Shown here one piece after another: positions 17,962 through 23,760 of a stretch of DNA of 64,000 bases (its first letter is position 1; each line of letters begins with the position of its first letter). The DNA is from Haladaptatus caseinilyticus (GTDB lineage Archaea > Halobacteriota > Halobacteria > Halobacteriales > Haladaptataceae), in assembly GCF_026248685.1 (NCBI RefSeq), contig NZ_CP111036.1, positions 1,302,001 to 1,366,000 of the forward strand. The letters are read 5' to 3'. The position numbers were made by a program, and so were the translations under genes. The notes beneath the pieces were generated by a model that saw nothing but the letters and a program-made list of their open reading frames with translations, made no database searches and was not told the DNA's origin.

Positions 17962-19395
17962 ATGCCGGATGTAGAACGGATTTCGACGGATAGGAACCTC
18001 CCCTCCGGCATTCGAGTTCTTCACGTCGATAGGGATGAGTTGGTGCTACGAGCATCCAAACTCTTCCTCGAACGCGAAGACGACATCGAGGACGTGATTC
18101 CCGTCACCACCAACGAGACGGCAATCGAGTACCTCTTCGAGTCTGACACGGATATCGACTGCGTGGTTAGTGACTACGACCCCGAACGGAACTCCGGTTT
18201 GGAACTCCTCGATGTCGTTCGGGAGTACTATCCCAACCTGCCGTTTATCCTCTTTACCGACAACGGGAGCGAGGATGTCGCCAGCCAGGCCATCTCCGCG
18301 GGTGCGACGAACTATCTCCGAAAAGGGAGGGACGACGTCGGGTTGCTCTCGCTTCGTTCCCAAATTCAGCACGCAGTCTCGCATCGTCGGACCGAAAAGG
18401 AGGTTCACCGTGGGTTCCGCGCGATAGAGATGACACACGAAGGAATCGCCCTTCTGACAAATGCGCTCGATTTTAACTACGTCAACGAGGCGTATGCGGA
18501 CTTGTTCGGATACGACCAAGAAACCCTCATCGGTCGCGATTGGACGGTAACGATGACAGCAGAATCGAGCGAGCGTCTCCAGTCCGATATCGTCCCAACC
18601 GTCGATTCGAAGGGCAAGTGGGCCGGTGAACTGACTGGCCGACACCACGACGGTGGATCGCTCACGTTGATTATTTCGGTTTCAGTCGTCGCGGAAGACG
18701 AGTACGTCTGTGCTGTCCGAGACGTAACCGAACGAAAGAAGCGAGAAAAAGAACTCCTCCAGGAGAACGAACGACTGGACGAGTTCGCAAGCAAGGTTTC
18801 ACACGACCTTCGCGGTCCACTGAGTATCATCTACGGCTATCTCGACGTTGCTCGAAAAACGGGTGACGAAAAGCACTTCGACAAGATCGAAGACGCTGCC
18901 GACCGCATCGAAGCTATCATCACCGATCTGTTGGAAGTCGCTCGCGAGGGTCAGAAGGAACTCGACCTCGAATCCGTTTCGCTCCCTGAGTTCACCGAAC
19001 GTGTCTGGGACGGCATCGAGAGTGACGAGGCGACACTTCGTCTCGAACTTCCCGAGATTCGAATCGTCGCCGACGGTGACCGACTGACCGAACTGTTCGC
19101 CAATCTCTTTCGAAACGCGGTCGAGCACGGTGGCGACGGTGTTATCATCTCGGTCGGAATCACCGAGGACGGGTTTTACATCGAGGACGATGGCCCTGGT
19201 ATTCCGGAGGCGGAGCGCAAAAAAGTGCTCGAATCGGGCTATTCGACCGCCAACAGCACCGGACTGGGTCTGAGCATCGTCAGGGAAATCGCCGATTCGC
19301 ACGACTGGACGATGCACATCGGAGAAAGCAACGATGGTGGTGTTCGTTTTCACTTTTCGGACGTCGAGTGTGTTCACGATACGTCGGACGAATAA
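17962..19395 (+). CDS. Receiver-PAS-histidine kinase signalling protein
   Basis: A 477-residue cytosolic sensor. Domains in order: receiver (about 17-140, phosphoacceptor Asp71 in VVSDYDPE, switch Thr99 in FTDNGSED, conserved Lys121), PAS (about 148-258, LFGYDQETLIGRDW), a short coiled linker, HisKA with His281 in SHDLRGPL, and a HATPase_c ATP-binding domain (NLFRNAVEHG, DDGPGIPE, GLGLSIVREI). No transmembrane helix or signal peptide is visible, so it probably senses a cytosolic cue. This receiver-first architecture is common in haloarchaea. It has no response regulator with an output domain next to it, so its partner is elsewhere. Confidence 0.88.
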   Translation: MPDVERISTDRNLPSGIRVLHVDRDELVLRASKLFLEREDDIEDVIPVTTNETAIEYLFESDTDIDCVVSDYDPERNSGLELLDVVREYYPNLPFILFTDNGSEDVASQAISAGATNYLRKGRDDVGLLSLRSQIQHAVSHRRTEKEVHRGFRAIEMTHEGIALLTNALDFNYVNEAYADLFGYDQETLIGRDWTVTMTAESSERLQSDIVPTVDSKGKWAGELTGRHHDGGSLTLIISVSVVAEDEYVCAVRDVTERKKREKELLQENERLDEFASKVSHDLRGPLSIIYGYLDVARKTGDEKHFDKIEDAADRIEAIITDLLEVAREGQKELDLESVSLPEFTERVWDGIESDEATLRLELPEIRIVADGDRLTELFANLFRNAVEHGGDGVIISVGITEDGFYIEDDGPGIPEAERKKVLESGYSTANSTGLGLSIVREIADSHDWTMHIGESNDGGVRFHFSDVECVHDTSDE

Positions 19396-19718: not shown

Positions 19719-20163
19719 AACTATCTCTACTTCGACGAAAAGCCCTCCGCTTGCCTGCGGTTTTACTTCGCTTTCACGATCCATGACGATGTCATTGGTA
19801 TTCTATAACACGGTCATGGCGGCAACGACGCGCAATCGATTCTATCACTGGTTTCTTGGCTGACCATTGTCGCTATATGCTCCTCGATACGGCCCGGATT
19901 TTCCACGATGTCCTCTTTCCGCCGACTGAAATATGCTCGTTACTATCCCCTGTTTTGTTCTTTCCGCTCCGAACTCGTACTATTGTCTGCCCTTTCCTAA
20001 TTTATGTTATGGTGAATTAACAAGTCCTCCGGTAAACATGTATTTTTCGTCATTCGAATAATAATTATTCGGTCTAAGACCGTTGTAGGTAGTGATTACT
20101 GTATTATTATTCCGTCAGGGGACTCATAACGAAGTAGGAATCCGTGTTCCACCATTTCGTAGC
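19719..20163. other. AT-rich intergenic region upstream of the repeat protein
   Basis: This 445-base gap is richer in A and T than its surroundings, most of all from about 19990 to 20110. I see no convincing gene: open frames here lack acidic residues and haloarchaeal codon use. It holds two adjacent palindromes (20055-20081) and TATA-like stretches, so it is probably an elaborate promoter region for the exported repeat protein. Confidence 0.5.
20055..20081. promoter_or_regulatory. Two abutting palindromes upstream of the repeat protein
   Basis: CGAATAAT-A-ATTATTCG (20055-20071) is an eight-base inverted repeat around one base. It is directly followed by, and shares a G with, GGTCT-A-AGACC (20071-20081). 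They lie about 83 bases before the ATG at 20164. Two odd-centred dyads side by side suggest binding sites for dimeric regulators, or an element near the transcription start. Confidence 0.45.
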
Positions 20164-21618
20164 ATGTCAAAAAACAACGGCAGTGAGAGCAAGCTCAAAC
20201 GCAGAGGCTATTTGAAAGGGATGGTAGCGGCCGGAATCGGTCTCGGTACGGCATTTTCGGCGTCGTCGAGCGCTGAGTCGTACACGGACGCAGACGGCGA
20301 CAGTGTCTACCTCGTCTTCGGTGCTGACACGTCGGAAAGCGACCTCGAATCGTGGTTGCAAGACCGAATGGGCGATATTCAATCGAGTTCGCAAGAGTCC
20401 TCCTCGGAGGTCGTCCAGTATCAGGACGTCGATCAACTGAACGTCAATCAGCAGGAGAACGCCGTCGCAATCGCCATCAACGGTGGCGAGGCGGACGCGA
20501 TTCAGCGTACCTACCAGTACAACACCAACACGCAGGAAGGGAACGCACAGTCGATAAACATCCAGAAGGAGGACAAGAAACACTCCTTCAAGAACATGGA
20601 GCACGTGTACATCGTCTTCGCGGACGAGGGCGGATCGCGTGAATTCTCCGGATGGGTCGTCGCTGACGATACGTACGAGAGCGAGCAGACCGCCGAAGCG
20701 GAAATCGACCAGGAACAAGAGGTCGAACAGCTCAACTACAACAGTCAGAGCACCGCCGTCGCAATCGCGGAGGGTGGCAGTTACTCCAGGTCGTTCCAGC
20801 GGAGCTACCAGAAGAACGCAAACGTTCAGCATGCCGAGGCCGTGGCAGCGAACATCGGCGACGGTGACGACCAAAGTGCCGACTCGTCGGTCGAACAGTC
20901 ACAGGAAGTCGATCAGGTGAACGTCAACGAGCAGGGTATCGCAGTGGCGATCGCGGTCGGCGACGGCAGTGTCGCCAAGGCGTGGCAGGTCAGCTGTCAG
21001 TACAACGTGAACCGACAGATCGCGGACGCGACGGCGATCAACTTCGAACCGAACTCCATCGCCGAAGTCTCTGCAAACGCCAGCATGCAGGGCGACTTCT
21101 CGAAATCGGACGTTAAGCGAGCGGACAACGGCGAGGGTCAGTCGAACACGCAGGGTGCCTCGGCGTCGATCGACCAGTTCCAGGACGTCAGCCAGCAGAA
21201 CATCAACCTGCAGAACGCCGCCGTCTCCGTCGCCCTCGACTACAGCGATGCGACGGCCACGCAGGCCAGCTACCAGGCGAACTTCAACGCACAGATCGCC
21301 GAGGCAGTTGCGGTGAACATCAACGAAGGTGCCGAGAAGGCAACTGCAGTGCTGAACGGCATGGACGCCAACGGCGACGGTTCGTGGGCGGTTAGCTACG
21401 ACAAGGGTGGCAAGCAGGTCAGCGAACAGACGGCCATCGCCAACATCGTCCAGGAACAGTACGTCGAGCAGTTGAACGTCAACGAGCAGTACAGCGCAAT
21501 CGCGTACGCCGAGGACGACGGTAGTGCGACGGCGGAACAGCTCAACTACCAGGTCAACCAGAACGCGCAGGTCGCGGAGTCGGAAGCGAGCAACGAAAAC
21601 GAACAGTGCGCAGCATAA
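20164..21618 (+). CDS. TAT-exported Gln/Asn-rich repeat protein (curlin-like repeats)
   Basis: A 484-residue acidic protein. The N terminus has twin arginines (KRRGYLKG, 12-19) and a hydrophobic stretch ending in Ala/Ser, a TAT export signal without lipobox. Five repeats of about 48 residues follow at roughly 85-133, 183-231, 246-294, 338-386 and 430-477. Each is two half-units: QxVxQxNxNxQxxAVAIA, then YQxNxNxQxAxAxAxNI. Alternating Gln/Asn and Ala/Val suggest strand-turn-strand stacking, as in curlin or other beta-solenoid repeats. Between repeats 0-1 and 1-2 lie related segments VYLVFGADTSES (49-60) and VYIVFADEGGSR (148-159). No anchor is visible at the C terminus. I infer a secreted structural or fibre protein; no secretion or nucleator partner is adjacent. 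The ATG at 20164 is preferred over 20092 because the TAT signal follows it directly. Confidence 0.75.
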   Translation: MSKNNGSESKLKRRGYLKGMVAAGIGLGTAFSASSSAESYTDADGDSVYLVFGADTSESDLESWLQDRMGDIQSSSQESSSEVVQYQDVDQLNVNQQENAVAIAINGGEADAIQRTYQYNTNTQEGNAQSINIQKEDKKHSFKNMEHVYIVFADEGGSREFSGWVVADDTYESEQTAEAEIDQEQEVEQLNYNSQSTAVAIAEGGSYSRSFQRSYQKNANVQHAEAVAANIGDGDDQSADSSVEQSQEVDQVNVNEQGIAVAIAVGDGSVAKAWQVSCQYNVNRQIADATAINFEPNSIAEVSANASMQGDFSKSDVKRADNGEGQSNTQGASASIDQFQDVSQQNINLQNAAVSVALDYSDATATQASYQANFNAQIAEAVAVNINEGAEKATAVLNGMDANGDGSWAVSYDKGGKQVSEQTAIANIVQEQYVEQLNVNEQYSAIAYAEDDGSATAEQLNYQVNQNAQVAESEASNENEQCAA

Positions 21619-21851: not shown

Positions 21852-22598
21852 TCATCGCCACTCCGACAGCCACTTGCTGATCGTCTTCGCGGGTGTCGCG
21901 GTAGCCATCGTAACCCGCTTTGGGTACGCGGTATAGACCGCTTCCGAACGGTTCGACCGCTCCGGACCGACTGCGTTCGGCGTCGTCCCGTTGATACATC
22001 CGACCACGTAACCGTCCATCGTCAGTAATGGTGAGCCGCTATCTCCATCTCCGGTCGGAATTGTAGCCAGTATCCAATCGGCGCGAGGGTTGTACGAATC
22101 GTACCTCCCTAAGCTGATCACCCAGTCGCCGACGGTTTTCGGATGTCCCACTGCGAGCACTTCGTCACCGTTCGAGGGTAGTGCGTTCGTCATCATCGGA
22201 AGTGGCGGTGGCGTTTCGAAGTCGGCTTCGAGGAGTGCGATATCGGGAAAGAAATCCTCGTGGAACCCTACGCGGGTAGCAGACGCCGTTCGCCCGCCGA
22301 ACGTTTCGATATCGACGACCTCCGATCCTCGAACGACGTGCGAATTGGTGAGCACGTATCCGTCTTCGACGATCCATCCCGTGCCCCCCGTGTCACCGTC
22401 CACTATCCGTACGACGGACCTTCGGACCGTGCGTCCGAGGTTTTTCGCCCGGTTTCTGGTTTTCGCGGTAAAGTCGGTGGCCGTCTCCCCGGACTCAGCG
22501 CCGGTCGAATCGGCGATTTGGGAGCATCCGACGAGAAGTGAAGCGGTGGCGAGACCGGCGGAGCGAAGGAATTTCCGTCGAGCTTGAACGGGAGTCAT
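21852..22598 (-). CDS. TAT-exported trypsin-like serine protease lipoprotein
   Basis: A 248-residue chymotrypsin-fold protease. The signal has twin arginines (ARRKFLRS, 6-13) and a lipobox LVGC (Cys25), so it is exported folded and lipid anchored. The catalytic triad is visible: His87 in TNSHVV, Asp119 in PDIALLEAD and Ser187 in GDGDSGSP. It resembles the protease domain of HtrA/DegP but has no PDZ domain. It probably cleaves or controls surface proteins. The ATG at 22598 is chosen so that the signal begins near the N terminus. It converges with the repeat protein gene, 233 bases away. Confidence 0.85.
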   Translation of the reverse strand: MTPVQARRKFLRSAGLATASLLVGCSQIADSTGAESGETATDFTAKTRNRAKNLGRTVRRSVVRIVDGDTGGTGWIVEDGYVLTNSHVVRGSEVVDIETFGGRTASATRVGFHEDFFPDIALLEADFETPPPLPMMTNALPSNGDEVLAVGHPKTVGDWVISLGRYDSYNPRADWILATIPTGDGDSGSPLLTMDGYVVGCINGTTPNAVGPERSNRSEAVYTAYPKRVTMATATPAKTISKWLSEWR

Positions 22599-22746
22599 TC
22601 GATCGATAAGTCCTGTCCCGTCCCGTGTAACCGGATTCGTTCGGGACGAACGTTCTCCCGTGTCTGTTCCGTTTTTCTCACCCACTATGTCTAGTGGTGG
22701 TCTGCCGAAACGATTGTGGCCACCACACTCCGTCGCTCGTGTTATG

Positions 22747-23760
22747 CTACTCCGGTTTCACCCCGTCACCTGTGATTCGAAACACGGCTTCACCGTCCGG
22801 GAGATTCGGTGCATCGACCAGTTTGATGATTCGCTTGTCTTTTTTCGAACGTCGCAGATATAACCTAAACGTGGATGCGTGTCCGAGCACGTTGCCGCCG
22901 ATCGGTCTCGTTGGGTCGCCGAAGAACGCGTCAGGGTTCGACTGGACTTGATTCGTGACGACGACGACGGCGTTGTGGAGGGTCGCGACCCGTACGAGGT
23001 CGTGGAGATGCTTGTTGAGCTTCTGTTGGCGCTCCGCGAGATTTCCCCGGCCGGGATATTCGGCACGAAAGAGACCGGTGAGTGAATCGACGCAGACGAG
23101 GCGGATTGGCCACCTCGTTTCGGCACTGCGGGTCGCCAAGTCAGTGATCTTCTCGGCGAGAAGCATCTGATGGTTCGCGTTGAATGCCTCGGCCACGTAG
23201 ATGGTGTCGAGGACCGCCTCGACCAAGTCGGTTTCCGTTTCAACACCGTGTCTGTCCATCATGGCGGTCTTCGCGGAACCGTCGAGTCCCCGAACCATAT
23301 CATCGATTCGACCCGGACGGAACGTGTTCTCGCTGTCGATGAAGACCGCGCTCCCTCCCAATCCTCCGTGTTCGCGCGGAAGCTGAGCGTTTACCACGAG
23401 TTGGTGGGTGATCTGTGATTTTCCCGTTCCGTACGCGCCATAGACCTCGGTGATCGATTGCGATTCGACGCCACCACCGAGAAGGACGTCCACTGCCGGG
23501 ACGAGCCATTGGAGCTTCTCGATTTTCGACCGTCGTTCGAGGAGATCGACACCGGTTTCGAACCCACCGAGTTCCGCTCGTTCGCGTGCTTCGTCGATGA
23601 TGTCTCCAGCGACCAACTCGCCGAGTTCGGCGGCAGTGGCGATTTCGGTCGGACTCGCGATTGCGAGTTGCCGATACGAGCCGAAGCCGGCCGCACGCAG
23701 TTTCTCGGCAGTCGTCGGGCCGACACCAGTGAGTGTTTCGAGTTCGTCTGTTGCGGCCAT
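22747..23760 (-). CDS. radA: RadA-family recombinase, possibly a second copy
   Basis: A 337-residue RecA/Rad51-type ATPase. Residues 5-60 form the helix-hairpin-helix domain (LTGVGPTTAEKL). The ATPase core has Walker A GAYGTGKS (Lys114), Walker B LVCVDSLTG and the FIDSENTFRP segment, and ends with LVDAPNLPDGEAVFRI. RadA forms filaments on single-stranded DNA for homologous repair. Several positions differ from the RadA sequences I know in haloarchaea (for example GAYGTGKS where GEFGAGKS is usual), so this may be a paralogue and not the main recombinase. Length is near the usual 343. Confidence 0.8.
   Translation of the reverse strand: MAATDELETLTGVGPTTAEKLRAAGFGSYRQLAIASPTEIATAAELGELVAGDIIDEARERAELGGFETGVDLLERRSKIEKLQWLVPAVDVLLGGGVESQSITEVYGAYGTGKSQITHQLVVNAQLPREHGGLGGSAVFIDSENTFRPGRIDDMVRGLDGSAKTAMMDRHGVETETDLVEAVLDTIYVAEAFNANHQMLLAEKITDLATRSAETRWPIRLVCVDSLTGLFRAEYPGRGNLAERQQKLNKHLHDLVRVATLHNAVVVVTNQVQSNPDAFFGDPTRPIGGNVLGHASTFRLYLRRSKKDKRIIKLVDAPNLPDGEAVFRITGDGVKPE

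Follow-up and report, generated by a model that had tools for sequence, protein, structure and literature searches.

An exported haloarchaeal protein of five Gln/Asn-ladder repeats and its one-repeat partners: a candidate extracellular cross-beta system

Genomic context of the five-repeat gene

The window, a stretch of 64,000 nucleotides from the genome of Haladaptatus caseinilyticus (contig NZ_CP111036.1), contains an ORF of 484 codons on the forward strand (20164-21618, +) whose product, P0001, is an exported protein with five repeats. The coordinates and strand of this ORF, as given in a preliminary description made from the sequence alone, were confirmed. Gln and Asn account for 18.7% of its residues, against a median of 4.7% for the predicted genes of the window. 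Alignment of the upstream regions of the window and of loci L037, L126 and L007 reveals strong conservation only in the last ~90 bp, a putative promoter or leader block (20070-20163, +) that carries the box CATAACGAAGT. The start codon at 20164 (ATG) gains support from this block, since the ~90 bp directly upstream are kept in three Haladaptatus homologues. With one mismatch allowed, the box (CATAAC[AG]AAGT) is present upstream of seven of the eight close long homologues, the maximum in shuffled sequences being four. Compared with three Haladaptatus homologues, the long gene of the window has dN/dS ratios of 0.19-0.22 and therefore behaves as a functional gene under purifying selection.

The same protein is encoded at locus L005 of the same genus and at the H. 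litoreus locus L037. The gene order around the long gene, which includes a Response_reg-PAS-histidine kinase gene upstream of it (17962-19395), is common to the window, to L037 and to a second Haladaptatus genome (L126). On the opposite strand, genes for a Trypsin_2 lipoprotein-like protease and a Rad51/RadA protein (21852-23760, -) are located between the five-repeat gene and the BtpA gene; as no counterpart is seen there in the syntenic L037 and L126, a local insertion is suggested. Partial or broken copies of the long gene, with truncated ORFs or in-frame stops, accompany intact copies in other Haladaptatus genomes (L019, L027, L028, and L039). A phage origin of the long gene was rejected, as the gene is absent from the viral contigs and phage records searched.

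Domain organization and repeat pattern

The protein starts with an export signal (20164-20265, +), read from the sequence and with an approximate end, that bears the Tat-like motif KRRGYLKG. The ensuing N-terminal module, SVYLVFGADTSESDLESWL (20299-20379, +), is conserved in alignment A1 and is found with a loose pattern in 99 of the 122 long homologues. Repeat 1, a 56-residue unit covering positions -7 to 48 of the repeat profile (20395-20559, +), is followed by a second module conserved in A1, HVYIVFADEGGSREFSGWVV (20593-20667, +), that resembles the N-terminal one by eye. Downstream are repeat 2 (20689-20853, +), repeat 3 (20875-21042, +), which has a one-residue insertion at its turn, and repeat 4 (21154-21318, +), all assigned with the profile. 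A further module conserved in A1, MDANGDGSWAVSYDKGG (21364-21414, +), separates repeat 4 from repeat 5 (21430-21594, +). The window protein ends 9 residues past the repeat 5 match, and in several sampled homologues the C-terminus is similarly 5-9 residues past it.

The repeat profile was built and iterated across all loci, and comprises 567 distinct repeats with an effective number of 189. Its matches start at residues 85, 183, 245, 338, and 430 of the window protein, with spacings of 98, 62, 93, and 92 residues that are uneven because the conserved non-repeat modules sit between repeats. Exactly five repeats are present in 121 long homologues. The five related repeats reported in the preliminary description are thus found at the positions it gave, all ten pairwise alignments scoring 12-17 SD above composition shuffles; its estimate of ~48 residues for the repeat has to be extended, the conserved unit across the 567 homologous repeats covering positions -7 to 48, that is ~56 residues starting 7 residues earlier. 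The regular Gln/Asn ladders that it described are borne out as well: QxNxNxQ occurs ten times in the protein, two per repeat, while 0.04 are expected from shuffles, and the Q/N autocorrelation at lag 2 reaches 0.38 (shuffle maximum 0.16).

Within the unit, alternate residues are nearly fixed and the intervening ones vary, the former reading Q-A-A-V-Q-Q-V-Q-N-N-Q..A-A-A-turn-A-A-Q-T-Q-N-N-Q-G/A-A-A-N with D-G-S/G as the consensus of the central turn. Judged from the sequence profile, this is the pattern of a one-sided β-ladder. The mean entropy amounts to 0.74 bits for the 26 positions assigned as inward and to 3.03 bits for the 24 outward ones, with a permutation p of 5e-5 that is descriptive only, since the parity classes were defined from that profile itself. 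The inward set consists mostly of Ala, Gln, Asn, and Val (Ala and Val together 39%), and the outward set is led by Glu, Val, Thr, Ile, and Ser. The central turn lies midway between the two Q-N-N-Q ladders, as in a β-arch or hairpin, but a good self-match of the inward ladder is obtained at an offset of 27 residues too, as two stacked rungs would give. Coupling analysis is dominated by the fixed columns and does not tell hairpin, arch, and solenoid apart, and no signal of outward pairing was found within repeats. Between adjacent repeats, the hydropathy of the same outward positions of arm B is correlated (r=0.16, p=0.0012, one of four tests), most strongly for repeats 2-3 and 4-5; no such correlation was found in non-adjacent repeats or in arm A. 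The arm B correlation is a weak hint in favour of neighbouring repeats lying in register.

Export, anchoring, and distribution

Signals and tails were counted heuristically over the 122 long homologues. An RR pair precedes the hydrophobic stretch in 66 of them, while 55 possess single basic residues only, and some close homologues, among them the protein of locus L033, which is 64% identical to that of the window, have a Sec-type signal. As far as such signals can be read from sequence, members of the family do not consistently use Tat export. The twin-arginine signal of the preliminary description is therefore valid for the window protein, with its KRRGYLKG motif, but is not conserved, and the argument that it built on Tat export of a folded solenoid is weakened by the same observations. 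A PGF-CTERM-like tail terminates about 11 of the 122 long homologues, the one at L015 matching Pfam PF18204; the window protein has no C-terminal PGF-CTERM segment.

Full-length homologues are encoded in all nine Haladaptatus genomes searched (that of the window and eight others), and the long protein recurs at ~42-45% identity in one further genus of the same family and in one other family. A long-protein match of any kind was obtained in 86 of the 394 sampled genomes of the class. In a family of our sample designated f8, the gene occurs in 99 of 125 sampled genomes and 26 of 29 genera. This family is almost certainly the haloarchaeal Natrialbaceae, an assignment inferred from members in Natronococcus, Saliphagus, Natronorubrum, and Haloterrigena found by other searches. 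A phylum-wide search, in whose sample few positive genera were drawn, recovered the family from no genomes other than the window's own and those of f8. Plasmid records annotate its members as hypothetical or merely as PGF-CTERM proteins.

Short one-repeat proteins

Searches with the long protein also retrieved short exported proteins that have hardly anything beyond a signal peptide and a single repeat unit. The genome of the window encodes four such one-repeat paralogues, two near C1:1535-1537 kb, one on C5, and one on C2; all four genes sit away from the window locus, where no short gene adjoins the long one. In another Haladaptatus genome (G008), five short genes for one-repeat exported proteins form a tandem array (L031:177-2130, +).

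The arrangement is different in f8, where in 12 of 14 loci the long gene is accompanied by one or two divergently oriented genes for short exported proteins rich in Gln and Asn, the closest of them lying 0.3-1.1 kb away. Some of these neighbours are clear one-repeat homologues by profile, and others are divergent and were caught by a looser rule on composition and alternation. The count of 12 of 14 is therefore an upper bound on homology but represents the arrangement fairly, and is not unbiased for the family, since the 14 loci were partly picked for short matches seen beside the long gene. In L110, no plausible gene was found in the ~1.1 kb gap between the long and short genes. Housekeeping genes, RadB-like, CdcH-like, and LarC-like by inspection, flank the f8 pairs on the outside, and the long and short genes therefore form a local, specific module. 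These exported one-repeat proteins and their placement beside the long gene are new here. Upstream of the short genes, a different box, TTGAAATAC-like, is present in 7 of 14. After the short repeat genes, L110 (10044-10676, +) encodes an exported protein of ~210 residues with a Ser/Thr-rich tail, with counterparts in L109, L111, and L113, which is possibly a third component.

Homology searches and structure prediction

The long protein found no match among Pfam or NCBIfam families or among PDB sequences, and family profiles compared with the PDB at E<=10 returned nothing beyond one weak match at chance level. This best PDB profile match, 26la_X (E=0.42), corresponds to an Ala-rich stretch and was taken as chance. 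PHROGs and weak Pfam matches of the short proteins were likewise set aside, as they look like signal-peptide or low-complexity matches. Clear homology to a known enzyme family, which the preliminary description had named as speaking against its reading, was found neither in Pfam and NCBIfam nor in the PDB. AlphaFold2 modelled the full protein from a nine-row alignment with a pLDDT of 29, placing low-confidence strands mainly in the repeats, and repeats 2-3 from a 28-row alignment with a pLDDT of 36; as models, these two runs speak neither for nor against a solenoid, be it the two-sheet left-handed β-solenoid of curli or another.

The preliminary description had also called the repeats curlin-like; a sequence relation to curlin was not supported. 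The curlin unit has 23 residues with N-x-psi-x-psi-x-Q motifs (PMC10192328). With E. coli CsgA and CsgB as positive controls, the searches work, as CsgA matches PF07012 at 1.4e-27 as well as PDB 8ENQ and 8C50. In contrast, Curlin_rpt (PF07012) has no match in the window's genome at E<=10, while E. coli scores over the cut-off, and none in any member of alignments A1 and A2. The X6QX10Q and QxGxxN motifs, each occurring 5-10 times in CsgA and CsgB, do not exceed shuffle level in the window protein, N-x-psi-x-psi-x-Q is found four times against 2.1 expected, which is not significant, and conversely QxNxNxQ is absent from CsgA and CsgB. Alignment of the family profile with CsgA and CsgB by hhalign gives a probability of about 0. 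CsgG (PF03783) has no match in the window's genome, with positive controls, an absence that is weak on its own because archaea do not have an outer membrane of that type. No match to FapC, covered solely through the Pfam and PDB searches, was obtained. The family may thus work like curli, but it does not belong to it.

A putative extracellular cross-beta system

The explanation that we favour, at about even confidence, is that the long and short proteins constitute an extracellular cross-β structural system, forming a filament or matrix with a role in adhesion or biofilm. It draws on the anatomy of the repeats, their alternation, the selection on the gene, its distribution, and the partner genes beside the long gene in related loci. 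The fixed number of five repeats in 121 long homologues, the PGF-CTERM anchor of a subset of them, and the weak arm B correlation also count in its favour. Of the secreted fibre or adhesion protein proposed in the preliminary description, a structural role is retained as the best reading, given the export signal, the ladders, the β alternation, and the lack of similarity to enzymes, and the link to curlin is dropped. Fibre formation, fold, self-assembly, the division into template and subunit, and the biological role are what we infer beyond these observations. The exported protein would reside at the cell surface or outside the cell as a β-structural component, each repeat folding into two long β arms or two ~27-residue rungs. 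One face of the repeat would be an invariant surface of stacked Gln, Asn, and Ala, the opposite face being variable, acidic or hydrophobic, and the fixed faces would pack as cross-β ladders within the molecule. The long protein may then template the one-repeat partners or be extended by them into a filament or surface matrix, the short proteins supplying or accepting further units, and this assembly could serve adhesion or biofilm. Templating or extension by the short partners is probable because the short homologues are little more than one unit. Sec or Tat export alone would suffice, with no CsgG-like pore, since these archaea have one membrane.

Several points count against this explanation: the pLDDT values of 29 and 36, the lack of an in-register signal in arm A, and a long gene in the window that has no neighbouring short gene. 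A simple fibre subunit would not usually have such long modules between its repeats, and the constant repeat number would suit a monomer too. The main alternative, less probable although a serious contender, is a surface protein built as a β-solenoid or hairpin stack that does not polymerise, such as an adhesin, a cell-envelope spacer, or a ligand-binding array. The five repeats would then make up one rod carrying the inter-repeat modules, and the short proteins would be separate ligands or modulators. Such a monomer agrees with a repeat number fixed at five, with the conservation of the modules, with the PGF-CTERM membrane anchors of some members, and with an inward ladder that matches itself best when shifted by 27 residues, as stacked rungs would, but leaves unexplained why the neighbouring short genes encode barely more than one such unit.

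Two further explanations are improbable, to a similar degree. Repetitive antifreeze proteins are flat β arrays that bind a regular surface, and the invariant Gln/Asn/Ala face could likewise bind a mineral, salt, or other regular surface instead of packing. The perfect regularity of the face and the brine habitat of the organism fit this possibility; however, a face made of 39% Ala and Val suits burial. The protein could instead be a largely disordered, hydrophilic Gln/Asn-rich matrix protein with no defined fold, in keeping with the low AlphaFold confidence and the acidic, low-complexity composition, but the strict i,i+2 constraint, which covers 26 positions in each repeat, argues against disorder, and shallow alignments of 9 and 28 rows explain the low confidence as well. 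Lastly, a true archaeal member of the curli family, akin to CsgA and CsgB, is very improbable and was rejected by Pfam, regex, hmmsearch, and hhalign, the general resemblance (Gln/Asn ladders, alternating small residues, five repeats, and divergent genes in related loci) being outweighed by the missing Curlin_rpt and CsgG matches, curlin motifs at shuffle level, an hhalign probability of about 0, and a unit of 56 instead of 23 residues.

A more specific version of the cross-β system, which we put forward tentatively and with less confidence than the system itself, is an independently arisen haloarchaeal amyloid analogous to curli, with a five-repeat long protein and one-repeat subunits, often encoded by divergent genes, that would polymerise outside the single-membrane cell through a new Q-x-N-x-N-x-Q ladder and with no dedicated secretion pore. 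If true, it would mean that a principle resembling that of curli evolved convergently in a second domain of life, where both the ladder motif and the export route differ. The family is lineage-wide and strongly constrained, and matches neither Pfam nor NCBIfam. Because an obvious candidate partner accompanies the long protein, fibre formation is directly testable in culturable organisms.

Comparison with known systems

Neither literature on the family nor experiments on any member were found in the open-access literature searched, which is no proof of novelty. With a curlin repeat model, Dueholm et al. (2012) found one archaeal protein in which curli-like repeats are regularly spaced (PMC3521004); unlike that protein, the present family gives no curlin match. 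The haloarchaeal setting is shared with the putative biofilm amyloid of Haloferax volcanii, the extracellular material of whose biofilms stains with Congo red and thioflavin T, HVO_1403 having been suggested and the structural gene behind the staining not being established (PMC4180959). The family is probably not this amyloid, since nearly all of its sampled members come from f8 and Haladaptatus. Like the sheath protein SH of Methanospirillum hungatei, it would be an archaeal extracellular structural protein based on β-arches, whereas SH forms closed β-rings (PMC10593813); the two are set apart by this description and by the PDB profile searches of the family.

Curli differs from the family in its motifs (N-x-psi-x-psi-x-Q and QX10Q, as compared with Q-x-N-x-N-x-Q) and in its unit of 23 residues, as compared with 56 or with halves of 27. 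The family also has no sequence or profile match to curli and no CsgG, carries large conserved modules between its repeats, and is exported by Tat or Sec from a cell with one membrane. In common with CsgA and CsgB (PF07012, 8ENQ, and 8C50), it displays exported repeats with predicted inward Gln/Asn ladders and small residues, and the divergent orientation of the f8 long gene and the small repeat-protein genes loosely recalls that of the csgBAC and csgDEFG operons.
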